This document shows positions 43,305-60,729 of a stretch of DNA of 64,000 bases, piece after piece. The stretch covers positions 310,001-374,000 of the forward strand of contig CAIQVH010000016.1 of assembly GCA_903875215.1 (NCBI GenBank), written 5' to 3'. The DNA comes from an uncultured Anaerolineae bacterium (lineage in GTDB: Bacteria > Chloroflexota > Anaerolineae > Anaerolineales > Villigracilaceae). Under the pieces are notes generated by a model. The model was not told the DNA's origin, did not search any database, and saw only the letters and a program-made list of their open reading frames with translations. A program made the translations under genes and the position numbers. How positions within the stretch are numbered: position 1 is the first letter of the stretch; each line of letters begins with the position of its first letter.

Positions 43305-46300
43305 TTATTTGTTGCGTTGCTGTCGGCGGGCATAGGCGATGGCCTGCTGGCGATTATCGAGGTGCAGGCGTTCCAATACCTGCCCCATATGATATTTGAC
43401 GGTTTGTTCGCTCAAGTGCAGGGCTTCGCCGACTTCTTTGTATTGCAGCCCTTGGGCCACGAGTTCCAGTATCTGCCACTGCCGCAGGGATAAGTCTTCG
43501 TCGGTGGCGCGGCTGACGGTCTTTTGGGCGGGGTCGCTTTGCCGGGTGAATTCTGCCAGCATGCGCGAGGCCAGCCGGGGGGTGAGAGGGGTTTCTCCAT
43601 GCGCCAGGCCTGCCAGTAGTTTGAAAAAATCGTCTGTGTTGAGATCTTTCAACAAATAGCCGGATGCTCCACTTTTGATGGCTTCAAACAAAATGTCATC
43701 ATCCTCGGAGACGGTAAGGATGACGATCTTCGTTTCGGGCAGTTCGGTTTTGATGCAGCGGGTGGCTTCCAGTCCGTTGACATCGGGCATGTTAACATCC
43801 ATGATAATGATATCGGGGTGGAGGGTGCGAGCTTTCTCAATGGCCTCGGCGCCATTGCGCGCGGTGTCGCTGACTACCAGGCCGCGTGATTTGAGCAGGG
43901 TATGCAAGCCATCCAGGAAAATTGGGGAATCGTCCACCAGGAGCAGGCGTAGTTTTTGAGCGGCGGTCAGATCGATTTCTACGATGTTTTTTTGTGATTG
44001 GGTCAGCAGGGGGAGGCTGAACAGGAGTTTTGTCCCGGTTCCGGGGCGGGAGCGGGCCTCCATCTTGCCACCAATTTGCCGGGATTTTTCGCGTAGTAGA
44101 TCGAGTCCGGGGTGTGGATTTTCTCCTTTCGAGGAAATCTGCTCGAGGTCAAACCCCAAGCCATTGTCAGAAAGGATGATTTGGAGATGGTCCTCCAGCA
44201 GGTTGAGCAGGATTTCGATTTTTGTGGTTCCGTTGTGCAAAGGGGTATGCTCCAACGTTGCCAGGATGATATTCAGAATGTTTCCTTGGGTGGCTGGATT
44301 AAGCGTTGGCAGGGGTTGGTCTGTGGGAACACTGAGGCTGGTCTGGATGCCGGACTGCCCGGTGAATTGGAGTAAGATGGTTTCCAGTTGGGCAACAAAA
44401 CTGTTTCCCGGGGCTGACTCGATTCCCAGGTTGGAGATCAGGTGGTTGATTTCGTTCTGCAGGTTCTGGGCGAAACGGGTCGTGGTTTCGATGCTAATCC
44501 CTGCTGCTTCGATGTCCTGTTCGGAAAAGAATTTTTTGCCAGATTGTGCTTCCGATAGAAGTTGGCCAGCGGCTTTGCCCAGAGTGCTTTGAAGGTTAAG
44601 CCCCAGTTTCTCACGCTCTTTTTGTGCGCTGGCAAGTTGTTCTTGCTGTTTGCTGATCTGTTCCATTAAACGGTGACGCTGAAGGACTTCGGCTTGAATT
44701 TGTTCTTGAGCGGCGGTCAGTTGCTGGGCGATGGCCGTGATGTTTGCCTCGCTGCTATTGACCCGGTCGCGGAGCTGTGTGAGGGTATGGCTGAATGATT
44801 CGGCCAATAATCCAATCTCATCATTGAATAGGAGCGGCATTGCTGTGCCGGGCTCTCCTCGGTTGATCATTTGGATGTTGGCCAGCAGGTTAGTAAGAGG
44901 TTTGACCAGGTTGATGCGGATGAATAGCAGGGTGGCGATCAGCGTGATGAAGGCAGCCGGTAAAAAACCGCTGGCCAGTGGCAGCATCGACTGGTGAATT
45001 TGCTGGCGCATGTCCAGGTAGCGACTATCTACAAAACCGGAAGTTGTGTCCAGGTGTAAGGGGAGTGCGGTATCAAGGTCAATTTCCTTGATTTGCGCTG
45101 GTTGGTTGCCGCTGACCAGGCCGGTCATGCTGCTGACCGTGGATGCGGCGAATAAGTCGGTGTTGGTGAGCGCATTTTGCTCGAAGGCCAGGGTAAACAT
45201 CCCGTCTGGGTAGAGAACCACCTGAAATGTCAGGGGTTTGTTTGATTCGTGGAGCATGTTGACCCAGGAAATGACCACGCGTTTGCGAGTATTCTGAACA
45301 TAAATGCCGCTGGTGTCCTGGGATTCAAGGTGCAGCTTGCTGTAGCAGGCGAGGATTTTGGGTTCCGTCCCATATAGGCCTAAGATTCCATCCTGCTCAG
45401 GCAGGGACCCAAAACTGATGAAACCATTGGTATGAATGTTAATCTGATTGTGGGGGATGCCGTAAAACGGGAATGAGAAAGCGGGGATAATGGTCTGATA
45501 ACTGCTTTCGGTGAAATTCAAACGCTCTCCGAGTTGCGGGTCAAACTGGAAGGGCATGTTTTCGATGCGGTATCCGCCGCCTGTTTGGGGCAAAAAACGC
45601 AAGGCGCGAGCTGCCTGTCTGGTATCTGCCCGGGGTGAATTTGCCAGGGCGGCTGGCAGCAGGAACCAGCCGAAACTTCCCAGCAGTCCGAGTACGATGA
45701 CGATGTTCATCCCAACCATGCGGACGGTGAAAGGAATGGGTCTGGGCAGCGAAATCAAGTAGGTGCTGCCCAACAGTAAAGTGGCCAGCAAGAGGATGGC
45801 GTTGCAAATGCTCCAGTAGGATTGGGTGTTGATCAGATTGTATGTTGTGCCAATGTGAAGGACGCTCAGCAGCAGGCAGAGAAAGATGGCCAGGAGAAGA
45901 TCGCGCAGGGTTCGGTCAATCTGGCCGGCTGGTCTCCATAGAGTCTGCCAGCCGGTCTGCTCATTTTTGGTCTGGGCAATGGCCTGCCGCCAGAGGATAA
46001 ATAAAACCCATAATAAAGTGGCCGGAACAATGAAATTGGTTGCATTGATTTGCGGGACGACCACGTGGGAAGAGAGCCGGATCAGTCGATAAATGGTGAA
46101 GCAGAATTCCCCCAAAAAAATGATCAGCGACAGGAACAAGACGATTCTTCTTTCTCGTTCGAGGTGGAGCGCCTGCGCCGGGAAAAAGTACCCGAATTGC
46201 AGGAGAAATACAAGGCTGAGCGCCAAAACAGGAAATACCCAGGATAGTGCCCAGGGTGCCAGGCGCGGATTGAGGGAGTTATTCAGAAAATTGAGAAAAA

Positions 46301-46475
46301 TCAGGAATGTGGAGATCCAGATGAAAGCTGCCATGATCGTCACATGCTGTAGTTCTGTCCCCTTCTTTTTTGCCTGGGATGAAACCAATAGCAAATACCA
46401 GCCCAGGCTGCCAAGCAGGATAATTTCTGCCAGCAGGCTGAGGGAGATGGGGGTCAGGTACCAGGGTTGCAACAT
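43305..46475 (-). CDS. membrane protein fusing a degenerate histidine kinase, receiver and LuxR HTH
   Basis: A 1056-residue one-piece signalling protein. About seven N-terminal membrane helices (1-290) and a probably external beta-rich region (about 300-490) are followed by a helix and a HAMP-like segment (FNDEIGLLAESFSHTL). The HisKA_3-like position reads REKLGLNLQSTLGK near residue 618; canonical proteins have LHD, so the phospho-acceptor His is a Gln. The ATPase domain keeps DNGLGF and GTGTKLLF, but the N-box reads TLEHTPLHN. Next is a NarL-type receiver (LLLVDDSPIF, Asp in IIIMDVNMP) and a LuxR HTH (LSEQTVKYHMGQVLERL) at the C-terminus. The kinase half looks catalytically impaired and the DNA-binding output intact. 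There is no SD before ATG 46475. Confidence 0.85.
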   Translation of the reverse strand: MLQPWYLTPISLSLLAEIILLGSLGWYLLLVSSQAKKKGTELQHVTIMAAFIWISTFLIFLNFLNNSLNPRLAPWALSWVFPVLALSLVFLLQFGYFFPAQALHLERERRIVLFLSLIIFLGEFCFTIYRLIRLSSHVVVPQINATNFIVPATLLWVLFILWRQAIAQTKNEQTGWQTLWRPAGQIDRTLRDLLLAIFLCLLLSVLHIGTTYNLINTQSYWSICNAILLLATLLLGSTYLISLPRPIPFTVRMVGMNIVIVLGLLGSFGWFLLPAALANSPRADTRQAARALRFLPQTGGGYRIENMPFQFDPQLGERLNFTESSYQTIIPAFSFPFYGIPHNQINIHTNGFISFGSLPEQDGILGLYGTEPKILACYSKLHLESQDTSGIYVQNTRKRVVISWVNMLHESNKPLTFQVVLYPDGMFTLAFEQNALTNTDLFAASTVSSMTGLVSGNQPAQIKEIDLDTALPLHLDTTSGFVDSRYLDMRQQIHQSMLPLASGFLPAAFITLIATLLFIRINLVKPLTNLLANIQMINRGEPGTAMPLLFNDEIGLLAESFSHTLTQLRDRVNSSEANITAIAQQLTAAQEQIQAEVLQRHRLMEQISKQQEQLASAQKEREKLGLNLQSTLGKAAGQLLSEAQSGKKFFSEQDIEAAGISIETTTRFAQNLQNEINHLISNLGIESAPGNSFVAQLETILLQFTGQSGIQTSLSVPTDQPLPTLNPATQGNILNIILATLEHTPLHNGTTKIEILLNLLEDHLQIILSDNGLGFDLEQISSKGENPHPGLDLLREKSRQIGGKMEARSRPGTGTKLLFSLPLLTQSQKNIVEIDLTAAQKLRLLLVDDSPIFLDGLHTLLKSRGLVVSDTARNGAEAIEKARTLHPDIIIMDVNMPDVNGLEATRCIKTELPETKIVILTVSEDDDILFEAIKSGASGYLLKDLNTDDFFKLLAGLAHGETPLTPRLASRMLAEFTRQSDPAQKTVSRATDEDLSLRQWQILELVAQGLQYKEVGEALHLSEQTVKYHMGQVLERLHLDNRQQAIAYARRQQRNK

Positions 46476-46679: not shown

Positions 46680-47501
46680 ATGGCACTCCGCGGAAACCTA
46701 CGCGATTTTACCGTTACGCAATTGTTAAATCTGATCAACCTGGCCCATAAAACAGGGACTCTGGTCATTGAAGGTCCTGGAGAAGCAGCCAGGGTGGCTT
46801 TTCGGCTTGGCAAACTGGCATATGCCCAGGTTGGCCAGGAAGATAACCGCTTGGCTTCGGTTCTACATCGTGCCAACAAGTTGACCACTGGCCAGCTGCG
46901 CGCCATTCAAACCCGCGCGATGCAGGTCAGCGACAAAGAGCTCGGTTTGTTGTTGATTAATGCCGGCTACCTGACCCAGGATGACATCTTAAATTCCCTG
47001 CAATCGTATTTTACGGATGTGGTCCGCCGGCTCTTTACCTGGGTGGAAGGTTCCTTTCGCTTCGAGAATGAACTGCTGCCACCGGAGGATCGCATCACCG
47101 TGCGACTGGACCTGGAGAATTTAATTATCGAAGGCGCCCGCCAGCTGCGGGAGTGGGAACAACTGCAGGATGAAATTCCCAGCCTCGAGATGGCACTCAA
47201 ATTTATTGAGCGGCCAGGAACCAATATCCAAAAAATGAATTTGAGCGTGGAAGAGTGGCGGGTGGTTTCTTTTATTAATCCGCGCAACACTATCTTGCAG
47301 ATTGCGGCGGCGGCCAAAATGAGCGATCTGGAAATTCGCCGCATTGTGTATGGTTTGCTGCAGGCTGGGCTGGTGGAAGTCATCCGCCCGGATGGCGGGT
47401 TGGCAACCGCTGAACGCGTCCGGCCGCAGGTCATCGTGCAGAACCGTGAAGAGCAAAAGTCGCTGGTGAATCGGTTGATCACCCGCATTCGTTCAATATA
47501 A
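46680..47501 (+). CDS. DUF4388 (PATAN-like) domain protein
   Basis: A 273-residue cytosolic protein. The N-terminal domain reads MALRGNLRDFTVTQLLNLIN and KTGTLVIEG with VAFRLGKLAYAQVG, matching DUF4388, which is frequent in bacterial signalling. Residues about 75-165 hold a helical hairpin unit (LLINAGYLTQDDILNSLQSY), and 190-250 a winged-helix-like region (ISPLEMALKFIERPG is followed by EIRRIVYGLLQAGLVEVIRP). It immediately precedes a Ras-like GTPase, as DUF4388 proteins often do, so it may act as a GTPase partner. That role is inferred. Confidence 0.82.
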   Translation: MALRGNLRDFTVTQLLNLINLAHKTGTLVIEGPGEAARVAFRLGKLAYAQVGQEDNRLASVLHRANKLTTGQLRAIQTRAMQVSDKELGLLLINAGYLTQDDILNSLQSYFTDVVRRLFTWVEGSFRFENELLPPEDRITVRLDLENLIIEGARQLREWEQLQDEIPSLEMALKFIERPGTNIQKMNLSVEEWRVVSFINPRNTILQIAAAAKMSDLEIRRIVYGLLQAGLVEVIRPDGGLATAERVRPQVIVQNREEQKSLVNRLITRIRSI

Positions 47502-47529: not shown

Positions 47530-48072
47530 ATGCAGACCGTTAAAATGGTGGTAACCGGCCCGTTCAGTGCAGGAAAAACCGAATTCATTCGCTCTGTCAG
47601 CGAAATCGACGTGGTCTCGACGGAAAGAAAAATTACAGCCAGCGGTGAGCGCGCCATTAAGAACGCCACCACGGTTGCCATGGATTTTGGTCGCATCACG
47701 GTGGATGAAGACCTGGTGTTGTATTTATTTGGCACGCCGGGTCAAAAACGGTTTGACTTCATGTGGGAGATTCTTTCAGAAGGGATGCTTGGATTCATCG
47801 TGATGGTGGACAGTTCCCGCCCGGAGACTTTCCGCGAAGCGCGTTCGATTCTTGAGACCTTCCGCGCTTATGCGCCAACCCCGTATGTGGTGGCGGCCAA
47901 TAAGCAGGATGTGACCGACGCCTGGGAGATCGAAGATATTCGTCATGCTTTGCGCCTGGATGGCAAGGTAAAGCTACTGCCCTGCGTTGCCAACGATAAA
48001 ACCACCGTCAAAAACATCCTGCTTGAACTGCTCTACAGCATTTTGGCCGAGATGGATGGCGGGGACAAATAA
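47530..48072 (+). CDS. Ras-like small GTPase (MglA/COG2229 type)
   Basis: A 180-residue GTPase. The P-loop is TGPFSAGKTEF, the switch I region has KNATTVAMDFGRI, switch II reads LFGTPGQKRFDFMW, and the base-specificity motif is NKQD. A Gln follows the G3 PG step, as in active Ras-type GTPases. Relatives act as polarity or signalling switches (MglA) or in conservon-type modules. It sits 28 nt after the DUF4388 gene and 17 nt before a hydrolase gene. No dedicated MglB/roadblock protein is present here. Confidence 0.9.
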   Translation: MQTVKMVVTGPFSAGKTEFIRSVSEIDVVSTERKITASGERAIKNATTVAMDFGRITVDEDLVLYLFGTPGQKRFDFMWEILSEGMLGFIVMVDSSRPETFREARSILETFRAYAPTPYVVAANKQDVTDAWEIEDIRHALRLDGKVKLLPCVANDKTTVKNILLELLYSILAEMDGGDK

Positions 48073-48089: not shown

Positions 48090-48887
48090 GTGTCATCCAT
48101 CACGACTGATCAAGGCATCGTACATTACGAAGTGTATGGGCGGGGGCGCCCGGTCATCCTTTTACACGGCTGGTTGGGCTCTTGGGGGCTTTGGCAGGAA
48201 ACCATGGCTTATCTTGGGCGCTATTACCGCACCTATGCGCTCGACTTTTGGGGATTTGGCGAATCGGGCAAAAAACGTGAAACCTATGCAGTGCAGGATT
48301 TTGTCAGCCTGGTGGATCAATTCATGGATCGCCTGGGCATTTATCAGGCGCCACTGGTGGGTCACAGTATGGGAGGCACGGTCAGCCTCTCGGTGGCCAT
48401 TCAATTCCCGGAGCGGGTCAAAAAAGTGGTGGTGATTGGTTCGCCCATTGTTGGTTCCTCGCTGGCTGTCCCGCTCAAGCTGGCTGGCTATCGCTCGATC
48501 GCCTTTATCCTGTTCAATATGATGTGGGCTTTTCGGGGCGGCATGAAGATTGCCTCGCCTTATATATGCTCGGACCCGCGCTTTCCAGCGATGATGGATA
48601 AGGATCTCTCGCGCACAACGGTAGAATCTTTCCTGCTCAGCATTGCCTCCCTGCGCCGCACCGACTTGCGCCCGGCGCTGGCCCAAGTGAAAGTGCCGGT
48701 TATGGGCATGTACGGTGACCGTGATAACATCGTCCATCCCAGGCAGTGGCAGCCGCTTTCGGCGGGCATCCCGGCGGCAAAAATTGTCCGCTGGGAGAAG
48801 GCGCAGCATTTTGTCATGCTGGATACGCCCCAGGATTTTATGGATAACCTGAAGAATTTCCTGGACGAGAAGGAGGATCCTGCCTGA
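48090..48887 (+). CDS. alpha/beta-fold hydrolase
   Basis: A 265-residue hydrolase. It has the HGWLGSWGLW oxyanion block, the nucleophile motif GHSMGG, MGMYGDRDNIV as the acid region and AQHFVMLDTP as the His region, so the triad is complete. The GTG start at 48090 is supported because the paralogue at 59944 aligns from its first residues (GIVHYEVxGRGRP). Substrate unknown (ester or lipid-like are possible). It overlaps the V4R gene by one base (TGATG). Confidence 0.86.
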   Translation: MSSITTDQGIVHYEVYGRGRPVILLHGWLGSWGLWQETMAYLGRYYRTYALDFWGFGESGKKRETYAVQDFVSLVDQFMDRLGIYQAPLVGHSMGGTVSLSVAIQFPERVKKVVVIGSPIVGSSLAVPLKLAGYRSIAFILFNMMWAFRGGMKIASPYICSDPRFPAMMDKDLSRTTVESFLLSIASLRRTDLRPALAQVKVPVMGMYGDRDNIVHPRQWQPLSAGIPAAKIVRWEKAQHFVMLDTPQDFMDNLKNFLDEKEDPA

Positions 48888-49504
48888 TGCAAACCTCCCG
48901 GAATCAATATCCCCAACCGATGGGCCGAATCATGCTCCAGGCGCTGGAAGAAATCCTGGGTAATGACGGAGCCCGGGCCATTCTCAACCTGGTTGATGGG
49001 TTTGATGTCGCCTTGTGCGATGCTCGCCATGAAGTGGGCATTTCTTTCGAATCCATCAGTCAGCTGCAGGATGCCCTGGAGAGGGAGTATGGCCTGCATG
49101 GTGGCCGTGGAATTGCGCTGCGGGTCGGGCGGGCCTGTTTTCAACAAGGTTTGCGCGAATTTGGCCCGCGCCATGGTCTGACCGATCTCACCTTTCGCCT
49201 GCTGCCTGCGCAATCCAAATTCCAGGCCGGCGCAGCAGCCCTGGCCGAGATCTTTAACCGGTACACCGATCAGCGTGTGCGCCTGGAAGACCAGGGCAAG
49301 ACTCTGCTCTGGCACATTGAACGTTGCCCTTTATGCTGGGAACGTCAGGCCGAAGCGCCGAGCTGCCAGATGGCGGTGGGCCTGTTGCAGGAAGCGCTGT
49401 ATTGGTTAAGCGGCGGCAAGTTTTTTCGGGTGGAAGAAATCAGTTGCCAGGCGTGCGGAGATGCGACCTGCACTATTGCGATTGATAAGACACCCATGGG
49501 GTGA
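48887..49504 (+). CDS. V4R (4-vinyl reductase) domain protein
   Basis: A 205-residue protein. Most of it forms a V4R domain, a small-molecule-binding module related to the ligand domain of XylR/DmpR and to chlorophyll-biosynthesis BchJ. Near the C-terminus are CPLCW and a final metal-like block EISCQACGDATCTIAI. The domain generally binds small hydrophobic ligands, so it may be the chemical input of the cluster. ATG overlaps the stop of the hydrolase. Confidence 0.82.
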   Translation: MQTSRNQYPQPMGRIMLQALEEILGNDGARAILNLVDGFDVALCDARHEVGISFESISQLQDALEREYGLHGGRGIALRVGRACFQQGLREFGPRHGLTDLTFRLLPAQSKFQAGAAALAEIFNRYTDQRVRLEDQGKTLLWHIERCPLCWERQAEAPSCQMAVGLLQEALYWLSGGKFFRVEEISCQACGDATCTIAIDKTPMG

Positions 49505-49509
49505 AACGC

Positions 49510-50790
49510 ATGTTCAAAATCATCTTGCAGGCTCCCAGGCGAATCCCGCCTTTTAATGAACCCGCACGGGAACTGCGCATCCAGAATATGCCGCTCTGGT
49601 TGTGGCAGCGCAATCTTCTTGCGCCATATGTCACTCGTGAACAGGAAATCCCCTCCAACGCGCGCCTGCCACAGATTCGCGAGCCGATGCTGGTCTATCG
49701 GGATAACCTGTTTTTTGACCGATTTTTCATCGAAGAGTTTCTGGATCTGGCGCAGCAACGGGGACGGCCGGTGCGGGCAGCTTTTTCGATCGATGACCCG
49801 GCTTTCCGGGAACATGCCCTGCCTCTTTCGGTCTCTTATACACCCGCGGGAAATCTTTATCTGGCAGATTTGTGGTATTACCCCAAGGGCCCGGAAGTGG
49901 ATGTTGACCCGCTGGTGATTAACATGCAATCCAGCGAAGTCGGCTATTATCATGTGCCCTCTTACATGGCCGGAACGCATGGTGATCTGGTGTACCAGGT
50001 GCCGCGCCGGGCCATGATGGCGATTGACTGTTGGACTCACGTCTTCATAGCTGACAGCGTTTTTGGCCTGTTTGCGCGCGCGTTGCGCTTTGAGACGCGC
50101 CTGAATCACGACTTGGCGTTCAAGCTGAATATCCTGGCATCCGCCATTTACGAAGGCCGCCAATTGCTGGAGTGTTCCAAACTGGTGAGGATTGGTAAAG
50201 GTTGTACGATTGATCCGACGGCTGTCATCCATGGCCCAACCACCATTGGCGACCGGGTGACGATCAATGCTGGGGCGGTGATTGAAAACTGCATCATTGG
50301 CGATGATGTTAACATCTCTCAGGGCTGCCAGCTAATGCTCTCGGTGGTTGGCAATGGGACTTTTCTGCCTTTCCGGGCAGCCCTGTTTATGACCACGATC
50401 ATGGATAATTCCATGGTTGCGCAGAATACCTGCCTGCAAATGTGCGTCGTCGGCCGGAACACCTTCATCGGCGCTGGATCGACGTTTACCGATTACAACC
50501 TGATCCCTGCGCCGATTCGGGCATTGGATGGGCATGATGAACTTCGGGTGACCAATCGCCCGGTGTTGGGTGGGGCGGTTGGCCATAATTGCCGCATTGG
50601 GGCCGGGATGATTGTTTATCCGGCGCGCACGATCGAGTCGGATGTTGTGCTGGCAGCTTCGCGTGAGCGGCGGGTGATTGATCGGGATATCAAGTACGAG
50701 GACAGCGATCACCACAAGATGAAGAATGCCAGTGCCCACAAGCAGGTTTATCCGCGCCGGGGCGGGGAAAAGGATCTCGAAGCCTGGTAA
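49510..50790 (+). CDS. left-handed beta-helix protein, possible nucleotidyl/acyltransferase-like
   Basis: A 426-residue protein. The last 210 residues (about 220-400) have hexapeptide repeats of left-handed beta-helix type (GKGCTIDPTAVIHGPTTIGD, VTINAGAVIENCIIGDDVN, and NCRIGAGMIVYPARTIESDV). The first 200 residues resemble no family I can name. There is no clear nucleotide-sugar signature (no GxG-x-R start). ATG 49510 follows GGGGTG; a GTG at 49501 would overlap the upstream stop (GTGA) and is an alternative. A role in surface sugar modification is possible but not shown. Confidence 0.7.
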   Translation: MFKIILQAPRRIPPFNEPARELRIQNMPLWLWQRNLLAPYVTREQEIPSNARLPQIREPMLVYRDNLFFDRFFIEEFLDLAQQRGRPVRAAFSIDDPAFREHALPLSVSYTPAGNLYLADLWYYPKGPEVDVDPLVINMQSSEVGYYHVPSYMAGTHGDLVYQVPRRAMMAIDCWTHVFIADSVFGLFARALRFETRLNHDLAFKLNILASAIYEGRQLLECSKLVRIGKGCTIDPTAVIHGPTTIGDRVTINAGAVIENCIIGDDVNISQGCQLMLSVVGNGTFLPFRAALFMTTIMDNSMVAQNTCLQMCVVGRNTFIGAGSTFTDYNLIPAPIRALDGHDELRVTNRPVLGGAVGHNCRIGAGMIVYPARTIESDVVLAASRERRVIDRDIKYEDSDHHKMKNASAHKQVYPRRGGEKDLEAW

Positions 50791-51197
50791 AGGCTTGAGC
50801 GGGGACAGGCCGGGGTTTTCTTGCCACAGGGTCTGGTCTGTTTGGGTACGGTGAAGGGCTGCGGGGTGAGTTTCCGGCAAGTCGCCAGAAAGGCTGGCGA
50901 AATGGATGCAGGTGCCCCCTTTTGTCCTGTTTCACATGCAAAACTTCTCGCTCGGGCGGCTGGTGGGTTATACTTGATTATTCATCAGGCAGTCGGCTGC
51001 TCGCGATGTTTCTGTAATGCTGGCCAGCACACGAAATGATATAGTTGGGATGGACGGCGGCCGGGCGGGCTTCCATGAATTTCTGTTTAAGCCTGAGTTT
51101 TGGCCCGGAGAATCTGACTGTCCGGAAGTGAAAAAATATAATAACGCGGCTGCGACTGACCAGTTTTGCGCAGCGCCAGATGTGATGGAGGCTCTTA
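50791..51197 (+). other. 407-bp gap without a supported gene
   Basis: I see no convincing gene here. A hairpin TCGCCAG/CTGGCGA (50882-50888, 50894-50900) has no T-run. TATACT at 50969-50974 is the best -10 candidate for the next gene. SD GGAGG at 51186 is close to its start. Short open frames in this interval have no SD and no family resemblance. Confidence 0.6.
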
Positions 51198-52103
51198 ATG
51201 GGAAAAGCCCGCCTTTTGATTGTTGAAGATGATGTTGATATTTCCACCATGCTGAAAATTTACTTCAGCGGGTTGGGCTTTGAGGTGGATACTGCCATGC
51301 GTGGTTCGGATGCGTTGGAAAAAACGCGCATGGCACTGCCGCATTTGATTGTGCTGGATATCATGCTGCCTGATATTGATGGTTATGAAGTCTGCCGAAA
51401 TTTGCGCACCAATACGCGCACCAGTCATATTCCGATTATTTTTCTGACGCAGAAGGATGAACGCAGTGACCGTTTGCAGGGTCTGGAGCTGGGTGCGGAT
51501 GATTATATTACCAAGCCATTTGATATCGAAGAGTTGAAGCTGCGTGTCCAAGGCGCCATCCGGCGTTCGGAGCGGGAGAGTTTGACAGATCCACGCTCGG
51601 GCCTGCCTGCCGGACGCCTGATTGAAGAGCAGCTGCGCCGCATTATTCGTGAGAAAAGCTGGGCTTTTCTGGACATTCGCATTAACCATTTTGATCCTTT
51701 TAAGGATGTTTATGGGTTTGTGGCTGGCGATGATGTGCTGCGTTTTGCGGGGATGTTGATTGGCGAAGTGTTGGATGAACGCGGCACCCCGGGCGATTTT
51801 GTTGGCCATGCCGGTGGTGATAATTTTATTGTGATTACGACAGAAGGCGCGGCGGCTGGAATCCGCGTTAGTTTGAAAGAGCGCTTTGCGGAGGAAGTGC
51901 AATCTCACTACAACTTTATTGACCGTCAGCAGGGATTTATTGTTGCCCCTGGCGCTGATGGACAGAATGACCAAGCCCCGTTAATGACCCTGGCGGTTGG
52001 GTTAGTTTCGCCTGCACAGCATTCTTTTGCCGATATTCGCGAGATTACCGAACTGGCCGCAGAAGCGCGCCGACAGGATGCGGGAGCTGCTGCCAGGGCC
52101 TGA
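51198..52103 (+). CDS. receiver plus degenerate GGDEF domain response regulator
   Basis: A 301-residue protein. The REC domain (1-120) has the acidic pair LLIVEDDVD, the phosphate acceptor Asp in IVLDIMLPDIDG and Lys in ADDYITKPFD. The second domain (about 130-290) has GGDEF-like architecture (LTDPRSGLPAGRLIEEQLRR; then RINHFDPFKDVYG), but the active-site sequence is HAGGDNFIVI where GGDEF or GGEEF is needed, so it is probably not an active cyclase. It may bind nucleotide or act as a protein-interaction domain. It lies 18 nt upstream of the giant kinase, whose target it could be. Confidence 0.85.
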   Translation: MGKARLLIVEDDVDISTMLKIYFSGLGFEVDTAMRGSDALEKTRMALPHLIVLDIMLPDIDGYEVCRNLRTNTRTSHIPIIFLTQKDERSDRLQGLELGADDYITKPFDIEELKLRVQGAIRRSERESLTDPRSGLPAGRLIEEQLRRIIREKSWAFLDIRINHFDPFKDVYGFVAGDDVLRFAGMLIGEVLDERGTPGDFVGHAGGDNFIVITTEGAAAGIRVSLKERFAEEVQSHYNFIDRQQGFIVAPGADGQNDQAPLMTLAVGLVSPAQHSFADIREITELAAEARRQDAGAAARA

Positions 52104-52121: not shown

Positions 52122-55100
52122 ATGCTGCAAGGACCGGTATTCCTGGGCATCGGCGTTCTTATCTCTGGACTATTTATTTTTTCGATAGTCTGGTTGGTTT
52201 TGCGTGTGTTGCCTCGTATCCGTCCCGCACTGCCGGATGCGGTTCAAGCGGGTGGGGGACCGGGGGATGCTCCTTGTGAGGCGGTGCTGGTGGTTGAGGT
52301 GGGCGGACGGTTTCGCCACATCAATGCCCTGGCGCGGGAGTGGTTTGAACTGCTCGAAGGGGAAATTCCCAATATAGAACGACTGGCTCGCCGTACGCGC
52401 CCCGGCGCAAGTTTTTTGGAGATATGCGCCGCTGAAGGTCAGGCGCATTTTTCCATTAATGGGCGGCTGGTTGATGCGGTTTCTTACCGGGTGCCGGGGG
52501 AAGTTCTTTCGATGTTGGTGGTCATCCGGGCTGTTGAGAGTCCGTTGGATGCTGATCAGGCCCAGCATGGGGAGGATCTTCCGGGGGCAACGCTTAAGAC
52601 GGTGACCGAGTTTGGCCAGGCCATCGCGACCAGTTTGAGTCTTGAAACGACGGTCCACTCCATCCTGGCGAATGTTGAACGGCTGGTGGTCTGTGATTTT
52701 CTGGAAGTCAAAGTTTGGGATGAGAGTACCAGGGCGTTGATTCCGTACCGGCTGAGTGATGTCACCGGAGCAGCGCGCCTGCTGCAGCGGGAAAAAGTCA
52801 GCCGGTTCGGTGAATATGCTGGTTACCTGGTCGCGCAGCGGCAGGAATTGTTGATTCCGGACACGCGTGCTTTTTCGGATGTGAAATATGACCCCGTTGA
52901 GAGCCGCCTGCCTCCGATGGGTTCCTACATTGGTCTGCCCTTGCTGGCTTATGGTCTGCTGGTTGGCACCCTGGAAATGGGGGTTGTGCAGGCGAATAGT
53001 TTTTCGCGCGAGGAAGTCAACCTGCTGAAATTGGTGACGCCCCAGGCGGCGGTGGCGCTGCGAAATGCTTTCCTGTATGAAAAACAACAGCGTTGGAATA
53101 CCCAGCTTGTGGGGCTCACAAACCTTTCACATGCGGTGGGGCCATTGCGTGACTTGCGGGAGTTATTCGCGCGGCTGGTCGATGGGCTGGCGCCCTATTT
53201 TAACGTTGAAATTCTGGGTTTTTTACTCTACGATGAACAGCGCCGGGTGCTGGAAGGGCAATTGCCTTTTTATGGGCTGCCCAATGATTTTGTGCAGATT
53301 TACCGGACGACGGTGCGCGCAAACAGCCCGGCGGACGTGCGCATCCATGGCCAGGCGGTGATCACGACACTGGATGCACGCCAGGATGATGTCTGGGCGG
53401 AGTTGGGGCTGCAGGATCTGGCGCAGGCGGCTTCCATGCGCGATACGGCGCTGGTCCCGCTGATTTCGGCTGGCTGTTTCCTTGGCTTCCTCCAGCTTTC
53501 GAATCACAAGCAGGGCAATCAGCCGCTCTCGCTGGATGAATTGCGCCTGTTAAACATGGTTGCCAACCAGGTGGCCGCTCTGCTCGATAATACCCTGCTC
53601 GATCAGCAGGTGCGCCAGCGCAACCAGCGCGTCGAGGTGTTGCGACGGATTTCCAGCCTGGTGAGTTCTTCGGCGAGCCTGGATGAGATCATGGGCTTTG
53701 CCTTGCAGGAATTGGCACAGCTGCTCCAGGCTGAGGCTGGGGCGGTTTTCCTGATGGATGAAGGCGAAGGTGTTTTGCACGCGCACAAAGCCTCGATTTT
53801 TGGCGTCCCGGAAGAATGGCGTGAACCACTCTCGCAGGTGATCATCAAGCCGTCCATTTATCGCAAGACGGTGATGGGCAGTCAGCGTCCGTTCCTTTCA
53901 GGCAATCTTTCGGGCGACCGGCGGATATTGCCGCCCTACCAGCCGCTGGTGCGGCACCTGGGCTTCCAGTCGGCGTTGTGCGTGCCGCTGGTGGTTGGCG
54001 GGCGCGGAATCGGTGAACTGCTGCTGGGAGGGCGGCAGGCGGACCTGTTCACCCTGCCGGATACACAGACCGCCTCCACTGTGGCCAGTCAGCTGGCGGT
54101 GGCGATTGAGAATGCGCGTCATGTGGGTGAGACGGAAGCTGTGCTGCGCCGCAGGGCTGGCTACCTGCCGGATCTGGCGCGTTATGTACGGGAAGTCAGC
54201 TCCAGCTCAAACCCGAAAGACTTGCTGCGCATTGTCTTTGAAGAAAGCCTGCGTGTGGCTGGCGTTGAGTGCGGCGCCGCCTGTTTATATGACTCCGGTG
54301 AGAGCGGGCTGGCAAATCGATCGATCATACTCCGGCTCGGCCATCCAGCCGGTGAGACGCTCAGCGGCGGTCAGACCTCCGTTCTCGAACTGGGCATCCC
54401 GGTTGTGATGGATGCGCCTGGTGCAATTCCGCATGCCGGGATTGCGGCGGTGTTGCTGACGCCAATCAGTCATCAGGAGCGGGTACTTGGTTTCATCGAA
54501 TTGCATGCGCCACAGGCCGGTTATTTTGATGAAGCCCGCGTGGAAATGCTCAGAATTATGGGCATCCAGGCTGCAATTGCCTTGCAGATGGCGTTGGCTG
54601 CCCATGAACAAACCGGACGGGTGGAACAGTATCGCCGCCGATCGGATACCTTCAAACAATTATTCGACATTCTGCAAGGGCTGCGGGTGGAAGATGCGCT
54701 GGAGAACGCCCTGGAACTGGTCGCCCAGGGGATTCGACAGGCGACACCCTTTCGCGCCGTCCTGGTCAGCCTGCATGATCCTGCGACCGGGATGTTAACC
54801 CGCATCGCTGGAACCGGGATTGACGCTGCAGCTTTTGTCCAGTTGCAGGAGCATCAACAATCGTGGATGAGCGTGGCCGAGTTGATGAAGCCTGAATTCG
54901 AAATTGGCAACCTGTATTTTATCCCGGCTGATAAGGCGCCAGTCATCCCTGCTGATGTGCAGACGCTCACCGTTGTTCAGGATGCGAATCCGGCCCCAAA
55001 TGCCTGGCAGCCGGACGACATGCTCATCCTGCCGGTCTACGACAACGCTGACCGGCCGCTCGGCCTGATCAGTGTCGACGCGCCGAGCGACGGGCGCCGC

Positions 55101-58100
55101 CCGGATGGGGTGACGGTCGAAATCCTGGAAGTGTTCGCCGCCCAGGCCGCTCTGACGATCACCAGCGCCCGGAGCAGGCTGTCTTTCCAGCAGCGCATCA
55201 CCGAATTGGGCCGGGAGATTGACCGTCAGAAGAATCTGGTCAGTTTCAGCCAACGCAGCCTGCCCAATTTGCTGCAAAAGGATCTGGATCACACCGTCAC
55301 CGTCTCCAACTTGAACCAGCGGGCGCGCCACATCCGGGCCGGGCTGCAGCTGACGGAGGCCATCAGCCGACAGTTTGATGCCTCGGCGGCTTTGTTGACT
55401 CTTGGCCAGCAGGTGCTGACCAGCTTTGATATGTCCATCTCCCTTGTCGCACAGGATACGGCCGATGGACCGCGCATTGTCCACACGATTGGCAATCTGC
55501 CTCGCGATACCAACCCGGAGGCTTTGTTCGGCCAGCGCAATCCGTTGCGCAGCTGTTTGCAAACCGGCGAAACGATCCTTTCAATTGATCTGGACGAAGA
55601 CGAGACCTGGCATGATACGCCCTTCCTGACCGCGCTGCGTGCCAAATCATTCCTGGCCATCCCTGTGGTGATCAATCAGAAGACCATCGCGGCGGTTTTG
55701 GCCACCGATTCTGAAACCATGCCGGCTATGTCGCCTGAAGACCGGCAGGTGTATTTTCAGATCAGCCGCCAGGTTTCGATCATTTTACAGAATATCAGCC
55801 TGCTGAATGAGACCCGACAGCGTTTGCAGGAAGTGAATTTGCTGCTCGATTTCAGCCGCCAATTGAGCGGGTTGAGTCCAAAGGAAATTCTCGAATCGCT
55901 TTTGCAGAGCGCTTTACGGGTGGTGTCTCCGGCGCATGCCGGTGTGGTGATGCAATGGGATGCACGGGCGGAGGAACTGATCCCGGTGGCAGCTTTGAAT
56001 TATGTGGATGACGAGGGCGTCCTGCGCATCACATACCAGCTTAACGAGGGCTTGCCCGGGCGCGTTTTTGCTGAAAAATCGCCCAGGCGGGTGGATGAAA
56101 TCAATTTTGCGCTCGATTACAATCTCCCGGCGGAGAATTTGCTCAAGTACCGGAAAGCCACCGGGGGCCGGGTACCCGTCTCCAGCCTGCTGGTTCCCAT
56201 TCAGGCCGGGTTGCATAACATGGGCGTGCTGGTGCTGGATAATTTCAACACATCGGCGGCCTTTCGCCCGGATGATGAAGCCCTGCTGCTGTCGCTGACT
56301 CAACAGGTTGCGCTCGCGCTCGAGAACGTGCGCCTGGTGCAGGCCACGCAGGAACGCACCGGTCAATTGCAGGCGTTGAATGCCGTTGCGGCCACCCTGA
56401 CTTCCAGTTTACAGCGCAAAGAACTGGTCAGTTCCCTGCTTGATCGCATGGGATCGGTCATCCCCTATGATACGGCCATCCTGTGGCTGCGCAAGGCAGA
56501 GAAGATGGTCGTTGCCGAAGCGCGCGGCTTTGGCGACAGCGAAGAACGCAAAGGCCTGCAGGTGGACATTGAGGACAGTCTGCTGCTGAATGAGATGATT
56601 CGCACCGGGGAGGCGATCGCCGTTGGAGATGTGCGCGCGGATGCGCGTTTCTCGACCCTGGTTGAGAAGCCCTACCTGTCCTGGTTGGGCGTCCCCCTGA
56701 TCGCCAAGGGCCAGGTGATTGGCGTGATCGCCGCCGAAAAACTGGATCCGCACTTTTACAACCAAGAAATCGTTCAGTTGGCCACGACCTTCACCAGCCA
56801 GGCCGCCGTAGCACTGGATAATGCCAGCCTGTTCGAAGAATCCGTCCGGCGCGCCGCTGAGTTGGATGAACGCTCCAAGCGCCTGGCCTTGCTTAACCTG
56901 TTCTCGGCGGAACTGGCTGGTTCGTTGAATGCCGAGCAGGTGCTCCGGTTAACAGCCAATCAGTTGTTGGTGGCCTTGCAAGCCGAGCGCTGTTTGATTA
57001 TTTCGTTGGAAGAAAAAGGCCAGGCTGTCCTGCTTACCGTTCTGCCCGACGAAACCGGACGCCCGACCATGTACCGCGGCTTGCCGGATGTGCCGCTCCT
57101 GGCCCATTTGCGAGAGTCACTCACTGTTTACACCACCGACGATATGCGCACAGATCCCAAACTGGCGGCGCTGCGTGATGTGCTTGAAGAGGCTGTTTCG
57201 TTGATGATTTTGCCTATCTCTGACGGCAGCCACGTTTATGCCCTGGTTTTGCAGAACAACCTCCCCGGCCGCTTTATTGCCACCGAAATTGAACTGGCCC
57301 GTACAATCGGTAACCAGTCCGCCATCGCCTTGAAGAATGCGGAACTTTACCAGTCCACGCTGGCCACCGCGGAACGTCTGGCAATCCTGAACCAGGTTTC
57401 ATTCGATATTGGCGCCAGTTTGGATCTTGAAGATATTTACCGCGCGGTGCATGGCGCCGCCTCCCGGCTGATGCCAGTGGATGCTTTTATTGTTGCGCTG
57501 CGCGACGAGGCCCTCGACGAAGTGGATGGAGTCTATATCGTCGATATGGGACAACGCATCAGTGGGGTGCGCCTGCCAAATGGGCAGGGACTGACCGGTC
57601 AGGTGATTACCAACGGCCAGCCGATTCTCACTCTCCAATCCCGCGAAGCCGAATCGCGCGGCGGTGTGACGATTGGCGAGAAGGGCACACCGCATTCCAT
57701 CCTGGTGGTGCCGATGCTTTCCGGCGGCAAGGTGATTGGTGCGCTTTCGGCTCAAAGCTATCAGTTCAATGCCTACACCGAGAACGACCAACAGATCTTG
57801 AGCACGCTCGCCAACCAGGCCACCATCGCCATCGAGAATGCCCGCCTGCTTGGCCAGACGCAGAAGCTGGCCGCCACGCTCGAACAGCGCGTCGTCGATC
57901 GTACGGCGGAACTGGAACGCGAACAGCACAATACCGAAACCTTGCTGCGCATTCTGACTGAAGTTTCCTCCAGCCTGGACCTGGATCGCGCGTTAAGCCG
58001 CACCCTCTCCCTCTTGAACGAGGCGATTGGCGCGGAACAGGGCACGATCATGCTCCTGCATCCCGAAGACAACATGCTCCATTATCGGGCTGGGTACGGC

Positions 58101-59558
58101 TATGTCACCCAGGATCCGCAGACCGGCAAACAGACAAACTCTTTCAATCTCAAGATTGGCGAAGGCCTGGCCGGCTGGGTGGTCAAGCACCATCAGCCGG
58201 TGCTGGTGGATGACCTGTATCTCGACCCGCGCTGGGTGGTTTCGCAGACATCCCAGAATCACCGCAGCGCACTGGTTGCGCCATTGGTGGTGGGTGAGGA
58301 CGTGATCGGGGCTATCATGGTCTTCCATCGCCGGATCGGGTTCTTTAACGAAGATTCGCTTGAGATGGTGCGTGCGATCGGTTCGCAGGTGGCGATTGCC
58401 ATCAACAATGCCCAACTATATGAGCTGATTCGCGATCAGGCCGAGCGCCTGGGGGCGATGCTGCGCCAGCAGCAGATGGAAGCCAGCCGCCAGACTGCCA
58501 TTCTCGAAGCGGTGGCCGACGGCGTGCTCGTTACCGATCCGGCCAATACCATCTCGTTTGTGAACGTCTCGGCAGAAAGCATTCTCTCCCTTTCGGCGGC
58601 CCAACTGGTTGGGAAGCCGGTGGAAAACGTTGCCGGCTTGTTTGGGAAAACTACCCAGACCTGGGTGCATACCGTCAAAGAGTGGTCGCACAATCCCGCC
58701 GGGCATCACGGAGGCGAGACATACGCCGAGCAGATCAGCCTGGAAAATGGGCAGGTGGTGCTCGTTCACCTGGCCCCGGTCATCTGGCGGAATGAATTTC
58801 TGGGAACCGTCTCCATATTCCGTGACATCACGCATGAAGTTGAAGTTGACCGGCTGAAATCAGAATTTGTGGCCACCGTCAGCCACGAATTGCGCACGCC
58901 GATGACCTCCATCCGCGGCTACGTGGATGTCCTCTTGATGGGCGCGGCCGGAGCGCTGACAGAGAATCAGTCCCGCTTTTTGGGCATCGTCAAGAACAAT
59001 ACCGAGCGCTTGAACATCCTGGTCAATGATCTTCTGGATGTTTCGCGCATCGAAGCAGGGCGCGTTTTCCTGGCAATTCAACCAGTGGATTTACAAGAAG
59101 TTGCCGGCGAAATTGTGGCAGACGCATTGCGCCGTTCGCATGAAGAACACAAACCGATGCAGATTTCTCTTTCTGTGACCGAGAGCTTACCGCGGGCGCT
59201 GGCCGACCCCGAGCGCATCCGGCAAGTCATTGACAATTTGATGGATAACGCCTATAACTACACCCCGGCGGATGGCAAAATTGAAATTCGCCTGCACAAA
59301 TCCGATGGGCTGGTGCAGGTGGATGTCAAAGACACTGGGATCGGCATCCCCGTTGGATTGCACGAACGCGTTTTTGACCGGTTCTTCCGTGGCGAAGACC
59401 CGCTGGTGCTTGCCACTCCGGGTACCGGGCTGGGCCTGCCCATCGTCCGGCAATTGGTGGAAATGCACCATGGAAAGATCTGGATGACCAGCACTGGCGT
59501 GGCGGGCGAAGGCAGCACCTTCTCGTTCACCCTGCCTGCCTATGAATCTGAGGAGTAA
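52122..59558 (+). CDS. giant multi-GAF sensor histidine kinase
   Basis: A 2478-residue kinase. One N-terminal helix (about residues 5-28) is followed by a PAS-like domain (about 45-135) and about eleven consecutive GAF-type domains, which I place near residues 173-320, 340-500, 520-670, 697-830, 857-1020, 1083-1230, 1253-1410, 1430-1575, 1603-1750, 1767-1915 and 1953-2100. Most end in the recurrent QAAxALxNAxLY helix. A PAS domain (about 2123-2236; ILEAVADGVLVTDPANTISF), HisKA (VSHELRTPMTSIRG, His2255) and HATPase (DNLMDNAYNYTP, DTGIGIP, GTGLGLPIVRQL) complete it. The kinase core looks intact. GAF ligands are unknown; only one or two may be true sensors and the rest signal relays. SD GGAGAG. 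Confidence 0.92.
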   Translation: MLQGPVFLGIGVLISGLFIFSIVWLVLRVLPRIRPALPDAVQAGGGPGDAPCEAVLVVEVGGRFRHINALAREWFELLEGEIPNIERLARRTRPGASFLEICAAEGQAHFSINGRLVDAVSYRVPGEVLSMLVVIRAVESPLDADQAQHGEDLPGATLKTVTEFGQAIATSLSLETTVHSILANVERLVVCDFLEVKVWDESTRALIPYRLSDVTGAARLLQREKVSRFGEYAGYLVAQRQELLIPDTRAFSDVKYDPVESRLPPMGSYIGLPLLAYGLLVGTLEMGVVQANSFSREEVNLLKLVTPQAAVALRNAFLYEKQQRWNTQLVGLTNLSHAVGPLRDLRELFARLVDGLAPYFNVEILGFLLYDEQRRVLEGQLPFYGLPNDFVQIYRTTVRANSPADVRIHGQAVITTLDARQDDVWAELGLQDLAQAASMRDTALVPLISAGCFLGFLQLSNHKQGNQPLSLDELRLLNMVANQVAALLDNTLLDQQVRQRNQRVEVLRRISSLVSSSASLDEIMGFALQELAQLLQAEAGAVFLMDEGEGVLHAHKASIFGVPEEWREPLSQVIIKPSIYRKTVMGSQRPFLSGNLSGDRRILPPYQPLVRHLGFQSALCVPLVVGGRGIGELLLGGRQADLFTLPDTQTASTVASQLAVAIENARHVGETEAVLRRRAGYLPDLARYVREVSSSSNPKDLLRIVFEESLRVAGVECGAACLYDSGESGLANRSIILRLGHPAGETLSGGQTSVLELGIPVVMDAPGAIPHAGIAAVLLTPISHQERVLGFIELHAPQAGYFDEARVEMLRIMGIQAAIALQMALAAHEQTGRVEQYRRRSDTFKQLFDILQGLRVEDALENALELVAQGIRQATPFRAVLVSLHDPATGMLTRIAGTGIDAAAFVQLQEHQQSWMSVAELMKPEFEIGNLYFIPADKAPVIPADVQTLTVVQDANPAPNAWQPDDMLILPVYDNADRPLGLISVDAPSDGRRPDGVTVEILEVFAAQAALTITSARSRLSFQQRITELGREIDRQKNLVSFSQRSLPNLLQKDLDHTVTVSNLNQRARHIRAGLQLTEAISRQFDASAALLTLGQQVLTSFDMSISLVAQDTADGPRIVHTIGNLPRDTNPEALFGQRNPLRSCLQTGETILSIDLDEDETWHDTPFLTALRAKSFLAIPVVINQKTIAAVLATDSETMPAMSPEDRQVYFQISRQVSIILQNISLLNETRQRLQEVNLLLDFSRQLSGLSPKEILESLLQSALRVVSPAHAGVVMQWDARAEELIPVAALNYVDDEGVLRITYQLNEGLPGRVFAEKSPRRVDEINFALDYNLPAENLLKYRKATGGRVPVSSLLVPIQAGLHNMGVLVLDNFNTSAAFRPDDEALLLSLTQQVALALENVRLVQATQERTGQLQALNAVAATLTSSLQRKELVSSLLDRMGSVIPYDTAILWLRKAEKMVVAEARGFGDSEERKGLQVDIEDSLLLNEMIRTGEAIAVGDVRADARFSTLVEKPYLSWLGVPLIAKGQVIGVIAAEKLDPHFYNQEIVQLATTFTSQAAVALDNASLFEESVRRAAELDERSKRLALLNLFSAELAGSLNAEQVLRLTANQLLVALQAERCLIISLEEKGQAVLLTVLPDETGRPTMYRGLPDVPLLAHLRESLTVYTTDDMRTDPKLAALRDVLEEAVSLMILPISDGSHVYALVLQNNLPGRFIATEIELARTIGNQSAIALKNAELYQSTLATAERLAILNQVSFDIGASLDLEDIYRAVHGAASRLMPVDAFIVALRDEALDEVDGVYIVDMGQRISGVRLPNGQGLTGQVITNGQPILTLQSREAESRGGVTIGEKGTPHSILVVPMLSGGKVIGALSAQSYQFNAYTENDQQILSTLANQATIAIENARLLGQTQKLAATLEQRVVDRTAELEREQHNTETLLRILTEVSSSLDLDRALSRTLSLLNEAIGAEQGTIMLLHPEDNMLHYRAGYGYVTQDPQTGKQTNSFNLKIGEGLAGWVVKHHQPVLVDDLYLDPRWVVSQTSQNHRSALVAPLVVGEDVIGAIMVFHRRIGFFNEDSLEMVRAIGSQVAIAINNAQLYELIRDQAERLGAMLRQQQMEASRQTAILEAVADGVLVTDPANTISFVNVSAESILSLSAAQLVGKPVENVAGLFGKTTQTWVHTVKEWSHNPAGHHGGETYAEQISLENGQVVLVHLAPVIWRNEFLGTVSIFRDITHEVEVDRLKSEFVATVSHELRTPMTSIRGYVDVLLMGAAGALTENQSRFLGIVKNNTERLNILVNDLLDVSRIEAGRVFLAIQPVDLQEVAGEIVADALRRSHEEHKPMQISLSVTESLPRALADPERIRQVIDNLMDNAYNYTPADGKIEIRLHKSDGLVQVDVKDTGIGIPVGLHERVFDRFFRGEDPLVLATPGTGLGLPIVRQLVEMHHGKIWMTSTGVAGEGSTFSFTLPAYESEE

Positions 59559-59560
59559 GT

Positions 59561-59935
59561 ATGGCCAAGATCGTCATCGCAGAAGATGAGCCCGATATCC
59601 GCGATTTGATCGCCTTCACCCTGCGCTTTGCCGGGCATGAAGTCATCACGGGCAGCAACGGCGAGGAAGGCTATCATCTGGCCCGGCAGGAACACCCCGA
59701 CCTGGTGATGTTGGATGTGCGCATGCCCCGCATGACCGGCTACGAAGCCTGCCAGCGCATCAAGGCCGAGCCCGGGCTGGGCACCACCCCGGTCGTTTTC
59801 CTTTCTGCCAAGGGGCAGGAAAACGAAATCGAGCAGGGCCTGGCTGCCGGAGCGGAAGAATACCTGCTCAAACCGTTTGCTCCCGATCAGCTTGTTGAGA
59901 GAGTTAACGCCATTTTGCGGAAATTCGGCAAATAA
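59561..59935 (+). CDS. single-domain response regulator (CheY-like)
   Basis: A 124-residue REC protein. It has acidic residues in VIAEDEPDIRD, the acceptor Asp in VMLDVRMPRM, the Thr/Ser site VVFLSAKGQE and Lys in YLLKPFAP. It starts 2 nt after the kinase stop with GAGGAG inside the kinase end, so it is very likely the kinase's partner. With no output domain it must act by binding another protein. Confidence 0.9.
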   Translation: MAKIVIAEDEPDIRDLIAFTLRFAGHEVITGSNGEEGYHLARQEHPDLVMLDVRMPRMTGYEACQRIKAEPGLGTTPVVFLSAKGQENEIEQGLAAGAEEYLLKPFAPDQLVERVNAILRKFGK

Positions 59936-59943
59936 CGGAGTGT

Positions 59944-60729
59944 ATGAGCGCGATTTTATTGGAAGGCGGCATTGTTCACTATGAAGTGATAGGGCGCGGA
60001 CGTCCCATCATCTTCCTGCACGGCTGGGTGGGCTCCTGGCGTTATTGGATTCCTGCCATGCAGGCCGCCTCGACTGTTTTCCGCGCGTATGCGCTGGATT
60101 TGTGGGGCTTCGGCGATAGCGCCCACGACCCAGAACGTTATCCTGTTACCCAGCAAATTACCCTGCTGGAAAATTTCCTCGGTGAAATGGGCATTGGAAA
60201 GGTCGCCCTGATTGGGCACGGGCTGGGAGGCCTGATCGGCCTGCATTTCGCCCACCGCAATCCGCAGATGGTGGACCGTATCCTGTCCGTTAACGTCCCG
60301 CTCGATCTCAGCCTTGTGAATGCCCGCCTGCGGGGCAGCCTTCCATCCGACCTGGCGGATTGGCTTCTGGCAAAAGATCCCTCCGCCGACCCGGCCCGCA
60401 TGGACGCTCACAAGGCCGATTCGCAAGCTGTCTCCGCTTCCTTCGCCAATTCCGAGTCCTTCAGCCTGGCCAACCGCCTCGGCACACTCACCAATCCCTG
60501 TCTGCTGGTCTACGGGCAGAATGACCCGGCCATTACCGCGCCCGTCTATACCCCGGAAAATTCACCCTACAATCTTCATCTGATCAGCCTGGAACAAACC
60601 GGACACTTTCCCATGCTCGAGGATACCGCCCGCTTCAACCGCCTGCTGACCGATTTCCTGGCCCTCGATTCGGGCGTTTCGCCGCGCGAACTGCAGCTAA
60701 AGGAAGAATGGAAGCGCCGGGTGCGCTGA
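59944..60729 (+). CDS. alpha/beta-hydrolase-fold protein lacking the nucleophile Ser
   Basis: A 261-residue paralogue of the hydrolase at 48090 (shared GIVHYEV-GRGRP, then LHGWxGSW). The nucleophile elbow reads IGHGLGG where the paralogue has VGHSMGG, so the catalytic Ser is Gly (codon GGG at 60220-60222). The acid (GQNDPAI) and His (TGHFPMLED) regions remain. It is therefore likely non-catalytic, perhaps a ligand-binding or regulatory protein. It follows the receiver by 8 nt with SD GGAG. Confidence 0.85.
   Translation: MSAILLEGGIVHYEVIGRGRPIIFLHGWVGSWRYWIPAMQAASTVFRAYALDLWGFGDSAHDPERYPVTQQITLLENFLGEMGIGKVALIGHGLGGLIGLHFAHRNPQMVDRILSVNVPLDLSLVNARLRGSLPSDLADWLLAKDPSADPARMDAHKADSQAVSASFANSESFSLANRLGTLTNPCLLVYGQNDPAITAPVYTPENSPYNLHLISLEQTGHFPMLEDTARFNRLLTDFLALDSGVSPRELQLKEEWKRRVR

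Follow-up and report, generated by a model that had tools for sequence, protein, structure and literature searches.

A giant Anaerolineae histidine kinase with eleven anciently ordered GAF units joined by heptad-phased linkers

What does a single histidine kinase do with eleven GAF units in a row, and are these units genuine, old and distinct from one another? The question is raised by an ORF on the + strand of the window (the whole stretch of 64,000 nucleotides that was analysed), which starts with ATG, spans positions 52122-59558 and encodes 2478 residues without an internal stop. A preliminary description made from the sequence alone had counted about eleven GAF units between a PAS-like start and a PAS-HisKA-HATPase end. 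The Pfam search bore out this count: both GAF_2 (PF13185; E=1.4e-128, 424 bits, curated cut-off 28.6) and GAF (PF01590; 4e-113, 374 bits, curated cut-off 22.4) matched in 11 stretches, and a scan of the own genome gave 11 separate GAF matches in the kinase frame at the same places. Structure prediction led to the same number. In AlphaFold models built on ortholog alignments (mean pLDDT 80.1 and 77.9), residues 1-1066 contained five GAF folds, and residues 1062-2242 another six and a PAS fold. Because these models are monomeric and have a pTM of 0.34-0.39, the relative placement of the units and dimerisation lie beyond what they show. The resulting layout is as follows.

52122..59558, + strand: giant GAF-array histidine kinase, 2478 aa (ORF, Pfam, end-to-end orthologs)
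52137..52202, + strand: predicted transmembrane helix, residues 6-27 (hydrophobic helix in AlphaFold model and sequence)
52281..52532, + strand: PAS-like domain, residues 54-137 (secondary structure of the model; no Pfam match)
52617..53078, + strand: GAF unit U1, 166-319 (genome scan, model)
53130..53600, + strand: GAF unit U2, 337-493 (genome scan, model)
53655..54125, + strand: GAF unit U3, 512-668 (genome scan, model)
54189..54602, + strand: GAF unit U4, 690-827 (genome scan, ortholog conservation, model)
54675..55178, + strand: GAF unit U5, 852-1019 (genome scan, class-wide matches, model)
55326..55805, + strand: GAF unit U6, 1069-1228 (genome scan, invariant motif, model)
55854..56339, + strand: GAF unit U7, 1245-1406 (genome scan, model)
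56391..56834, + strand: GAF unit U8, 1424-1571 (genome scan, model)
56907..57350, + strand: GAF unit U9, 1596-1743 (genome scan, model)
57402..57851, + strand: GAF unit U10, 1761-1910 (genome scan, cross-family profiles, model)
57957..58421, + strand: GAF unit U11, 1946-2100 (genome scan, model)
58479..58841, + strand: PAS domain adjoining the kinase, 2120-2240 (PF00989 3.3e-06, model)
58857..59060, + strand: HisKA domain, 2246-2313, with phospho-acceptor His2255 (Pfam 2.5e-20)
59205..59540, + strand: HATPase_c domain, 2362-2473 (Pfam 4.8e-29)

The catalytic end was as first described: the PAS, HisKA and HATPase_c domains had Pfam matches, and His2255 lies within an SHELRTP box and was kept in at least 90% of the orthologs, so that the protein has both the phospho-acceptor histidine and the ATPase domain of a HisKA sensor histidine kinase. 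The PAS-like start stood in part, since residues 54-137 have a PAS-like order of strands and helices in the AlphaFold model but matched no Pfam model. The preliminary description had overlooked the predicted transmembrane helix at residues ~6-27, after which comes an Arg-rich stretch. As the kinase has no sizeable extracytoplasmic part, it probably senses cytoplasmic or membrane-borne signals.

Since the gene is repetitive and 7.4 kb long and the assembly consists of 38 contigs, an artefact of assembly or duplication was conceivable. End-to-end orthologs with 45-68% identity were found, however, throughout the family in many independent genomes, including the single-contig genomes G018, G249 and G385, which rules out an assembly chimera, and the units within the protein were just 20% identical on average (range 11-30%). 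We regard the chance of such an artefact as negligible. Recent tandem duplication was also rejected, because units this different are colinearly orthologous: unit-specific HMMs built from the own family matched the proteins of other families colinearly, almost always in the same order. Units that share only ~20% identity within the protein and yet match unit for unit across families indicate that the array is ancient and ordered, in agreement with the initial view of the units as old and diverged; judged by these sequence comparisons, the GAF array is older than the order. The genome itself is that of a Chloroflexota of the Anaerolineae/Anaerolineales type. The named matches were Anaerolineales/Anaerolineae genomes, and no homolog outside the class was found at the same threshold in the phylum sample. 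Values of dN/dS obtained per unit from the two closest orthologs were 0.008-0.18, with dS saturated for most units.

The number of units was constant within the family in all 18 of the 18 complete orthologs that aligned end to end, each having 11. In class relatives outside the order, the same gene encodes 7 to 14 GAF units and up to 3130 aa, so 11 is not the extreme; the unit count is out of the ordinary, as had been supposed, but not unique. In the own genome, the next largest GAF protein among those examined has ~5-6 units. A published count of equally long bacterial GAF arrays was not found in the open-licence PMC literature, where the largest described array in the papers searched was that of the seven-GAF photoreceptor PtxD (PMC5812497). 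We therefore call the array large and do not extend the claim to the largest, the comparison being class-wide. The kinase is real, intact and anciently conserved, and the size of its array is common to the whole class.

Shorter, frameshift-free relatives do exist. The kinase of G024, of the same family, has 8 units, and those of G005 and G003, of the same genus, have 804 and 787 residues with just two degenerate GAF remnants. When a tree was built from the kinase core and the two regulators, G003 and G005 appeared on a long branch within the genus of 11-unit kinases, and G024 lay next to a relative with 11 units. Because the short forms nest within 11-unit clades, we rejected the reduced arrays as the ancestral state; they arose by later reduction, in which G024 lost three units and G003/G005 lost nine, and the long form is not artefactual.

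In the models, nearly every GAF unit is followed by a single helix of ~43-71 residues, with the U3-U4 helix interrupted once. We measured each inter-GAF junction with profile-based anchors, from the Asn in IENA, at the end of a GAF unit, to the Leu in SLDLDE, where the following unit starts. In the class set after removal of all closest-family proteins but one, 94.4% of the 287 non-redundant junctions, among which orthologous ones still share their length by descent, had a distance of 7n or 7n+4, as compared with 28.6% expected by chance. The two length classes were defined post hoc from the lengths, a bias that is lessened but not removed by the control spans inside GAF domains, which were at 7n or 7n+4 in 29.6% of cases with the same anchors. 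Class-wide, the distances were 28, 32, 35, 39, 42, 46, 49, 53, 60, 67 or 70; the exceptions were a distance of 27, most of whose occurrences fell at one orthologous junction, plus a few isolated cases. Nine of the ten junctions in the kinase of the window fitted the rule (binomial P ~9e-5), and U6-U7, at 27, is a single residue off 7n.

Hydrophobicity along the linkers had a period of 3.5 residues. Together with the heptad-class lengths and the negative control within domains, this places the kinase among coiled-coil (heptad-linker) receptors. The linker helices contained 1 indel in 566 residues in 18 pairwise ortholog comparisons, namely a 7-residue insertion in G037, whereas 41 were found in 835 residues of GAF helices and strands and 155 in 566 loop residues; these counts are not independent, because a single event can be inherited by several orthologs. 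Four inserted residues make up the classical coiled-coil stutter, heptad-dependent linkers determine the output of YF1, an engineered kinase, and similar heptad signatures between consecutive sensor modules have been described (PMC6798134). These results support a continuous coiled-coil relay and speak against beads on a flexible string. The 28/35/42 spacers recurred in other GAF kinases encoded by the own genome, indicating a general rule and no peculiarity of the giant kinase; what is exceptional here is the number of consecutive repeats over which the rule holds. In the same genome, some nine GAF kinase-like genes also follow one another on a single strand (L072, L073; G000:C31:116000-138500).

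A very long mechanical coiled chain had been offered early on as one possible purpose of the array. The coiled chain is borne out by the heptad-locked linkers, but a mechanical ruler of fixed length is disfavoured by the occurrence of 2 to 14 units with the coiled-coil phase kept, which fits modular gain and loss of inputs. The same variation bears on the idea that the array is a length device or scaffold with little sensing, either a rigid rod that holds the kinase off the membrane or a docking platform. The single N-terminal membrane helix, the locked linker lengths and the 11 units fixed in the family are all compatible with this idea, yet total length is not conserved within the same gene cluster, whereas the unit-specific invariant residues are, and we consider it improbable.

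Each GAF unit has invariant residues of its own, which, with the colinear HMM matches, is as expected if each unit has a distinct job. The degree of conservation differed among the units. Column identity in the family orthologs was ~0.60-0.64 in U6, U7, U8 and U11, ~0.41 in U1 and U9, and lowest (0.34) in U4; U6 contains an invariant GQRNPLR motif, and U5 had the best class-wide matches. U10 is a variable slot that, in other families, is missing (G036, G031 and G035) or doubled (G030 and G027). This unevenness, and the disappearance of three units in one relative and nine in two others, could mean that the array is mostly a passive relay, in which sensing is left to a few units, such as U5-U8 and U11, and the others are ligand-free folds that carry the coiled coil. 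Every unit nevertheless keeps its colinear identity across families, and even in U4, the least conserved, Cys717, His771 and His795 were present in 90% or more of the family's orthologs. We think a mostly passive relay rather unlikely, though it is the strongest of the alternatives. The three residues of U4 form a possible metal or redox site.

The closest solved folds were phytochromes, the CyaB2 tandem GAF (1ykd) and PDE2A. Such fold similarity, and the precedent of PtxD with its seven GAF units, at least six of which bind bilin (PMC5812497), would suit an array of cyclic-nucleotide or bilin sensors of the CyaB2/PDE/cyanobacteriochrome type. Against this, the identity to these folds was just 10-19%, and the only cysteines conserved at 90% or more in the entire kinase were Cys102 in the N-terminal domain and Cys717 in U4. 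The units thus do not each have a conserved bilin-binding Cys of the kind found in cyanobacteriochrome and phytochrome GAF domains, and we rejected a bilin photoreceptor; the sensor-array reading as a whole appears very improbable.

The kinase gene lies in a cluster whose other members are all on the same strand.

46680..47501, + strand: PATAN/DUF4388 protein (domain match 1.4e-27; synteny)
47530..48072, + strand: MglA-like small GTPase (domain match, solved-structure match; synteny)
48090..48887, + strand: alpha/beta hydrolase 1 (domain match; synteny)
48887..49504, + strand: V4R-domain protein (domain match; synteny)
49501..50790, + strand: hexapeptide-repeat protein (domain match; synteny)
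51198..52103, + strand: response regulator with degenerate GGDEF (GGDNF) (domain and motif; synteny)
59561..59935, + strand: stand-alone receiver-domain response regulator (domain match; synteny)
59944..60729, + strand: alpha/beta hydrolase 2 (domain match; synteny)

This order (PATAN/DUF4388, MglA-like GTPase, hydrolase, V4R, hexapeptide, REC-GGDNF, kinase, receiver, hydrolase) was found class-wide with local losses, and the kinase, REC-GGDNF and receiver genes remain adjacent throughout the class. The receiver at 59561..59935 is likely the cognate of the kinase. In G013, G032 and G038 the kinase, hexapeptide and REC-GGDNF genes were jointly absent. The best solved match of the GTPase was MglA (3t12, E=1e-07), and its G3 motif, GTPGQ, lacks the usual Asp, which assigns it to the MglA family. 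In 54 sequences class-wide, GGDNF and variants replaced the GG(D/E)EF of an active diguanylate cyclase; this non-canonical motif suggests that the protein serves as a receptor or docking partner instead of a cyclase.

Several further features of the locus and its relatives were observed. The V4R protein (48887-49504) has class-conserved cysteines (RCPLCW ... C ... ISCQACGDATC) that may form a metal or cluster site. In most family relatives the hexapeptide and REC-GGDNF genes are separated by an acyl-ACP-reductase-like gene (solved match 6jzq, E=1.9e-27; L039:11860-12948), which is missing at 50790-51198 here and had no match elsewhere in the own genome. In G007 (L085), both response regulators were present, and the kinase, V4R and hexapeptide genes were absent between the flanking genes. 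At the G005/G003 loci (L083, L084) no PATAN or V4R matches were found, roadblock was not found genome-wide, and the GTPase had diverged to ~40% identity; this is a single lineage, and G003 is 63% complete. At a second locus (L138:5371-7278; G000:C14), genes for a roadblock/LC7 protein, a V4R paralog and a REC-GGDEF-like paralog are consecutive, so that a GTPase regulator is again found in the company of these components, and related REC-GGDEF paralogs and roadblock matches were close together in many relatives. A link to type IV pili through co-loss of PilM was unsupported, as PilM was present in 37 of 41 genomes, including kinase-less ones. Upstream of the cluster, at 43305-46475 on the - strand, a 1056-aa protein with membrane helices and HAMP, HATPase, receiver and LuxR-type DNA-binding domains is a one-protein two-component system.

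Taking these data together, we consider it fairly probable that the kinase is a membrane-anchored, cytoplasmic, dimeric histidine kinase with multiple inputs. Two parallel chains would place each GAF pair on one continuous coiled coil. Events at single units, involving a ligand or partner different for each, would alter the twist or stability of the coil, and the sum of these changes would be passed to the PAS-DHp module and there determine whether the enzyme acts as a kinase or a phosphatase on the receiver at 59561, the REC-GGDNF protein encoded at 51198 or both. On this model the array would integrate signals, one of the two possibilities raised at the outset. By a weaker analogy with conservons and MglA polarity modules, the output might feed the co-encoded MglA-like GTPase/PATAN pair. 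Two observations argue against multiple inputs: U1, U4 and U9 are weakly conserved, and kinases with 2 or 8 units still have their core, which must therefore do its job without most of the inputs. A broader proposal, which we put forward tentatively and hold to be possible rather than probable, is that the cluster is an unrecognised class-wide Anaerolineae signalling system, a counterpart of the conservons, in which a kinase whose sensor array is adjustable but phase-locked, with as many as 14 units, governs a switch made up of the MglA-like GTPase and the PATAN protein. If so, inputs could be gained or lost in evolution without breaking transmission.

Of what is new here, the orthology of the array unit by unit and the locking of its spacing in phase are the most useful. 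Natural versions of the kinase have 2, 7, 8, 10, 11, 12, 13 or 14 GAF units within the same gene cluster and all keep the linker phase, so that it becomes testable how many sensor modules one coiled coil can integrate and whether spacer phase sets the sign and gain of the response. The locus further suggests a conserved connection, so far uncharacterised, of two-component signalling with a bacterial Ras-like GTPase.

The architecture is of a known kind, a multi-GAF histidine kinase, in an extreme, large-array variant. Like other multi-GAF HisKA kinases, the giant kinase has helix-joined GAF units before PAS-HisKA-HATPase; unlike them, it has eleven units, a strict and ancient unit order and a fixed cluster context. 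PtxD of Nostoc punctiforme shares the long GAF array within one receptor (PMC5812497), but its units bind bilins, whereas the giant kinase has no bilin cysteine per unit. As in actinobacterial conservons/AGPS, a histidine kinase gene is co-conserved with a gene for an MglA-family small GTPase (PMC13343842, PMC4316618); in contrast to them, the present locus has response regulators and a PATAN protein. Membership in the conservons was rejected: the cluster contains no roadblock (CvnB) gene, two being located elsewhere in the genome, no cluster protein matched CvnC/DUF742, and the kinase has no C-terminal LPxR extension and ends in FTLPAYESEE. A PATAN (DUF4388) gene adjoining one for an MglA-type GTPase has been documented (PMC4316618) and recurs here, but in this cluster the giant kinase, V4R, REC-GGDNF and hydrolase genes are joined to the pair class-wide. 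Finally, signalling-helix and heptad-linker receptors such as YF1 and phytochrome kinases have linker lengths of the same heptad classes (PMC6798134, PMC1592074), whereas the giant kinase repeats the rule over ten consecutive junctions and has kept it through the gain and loss of units.
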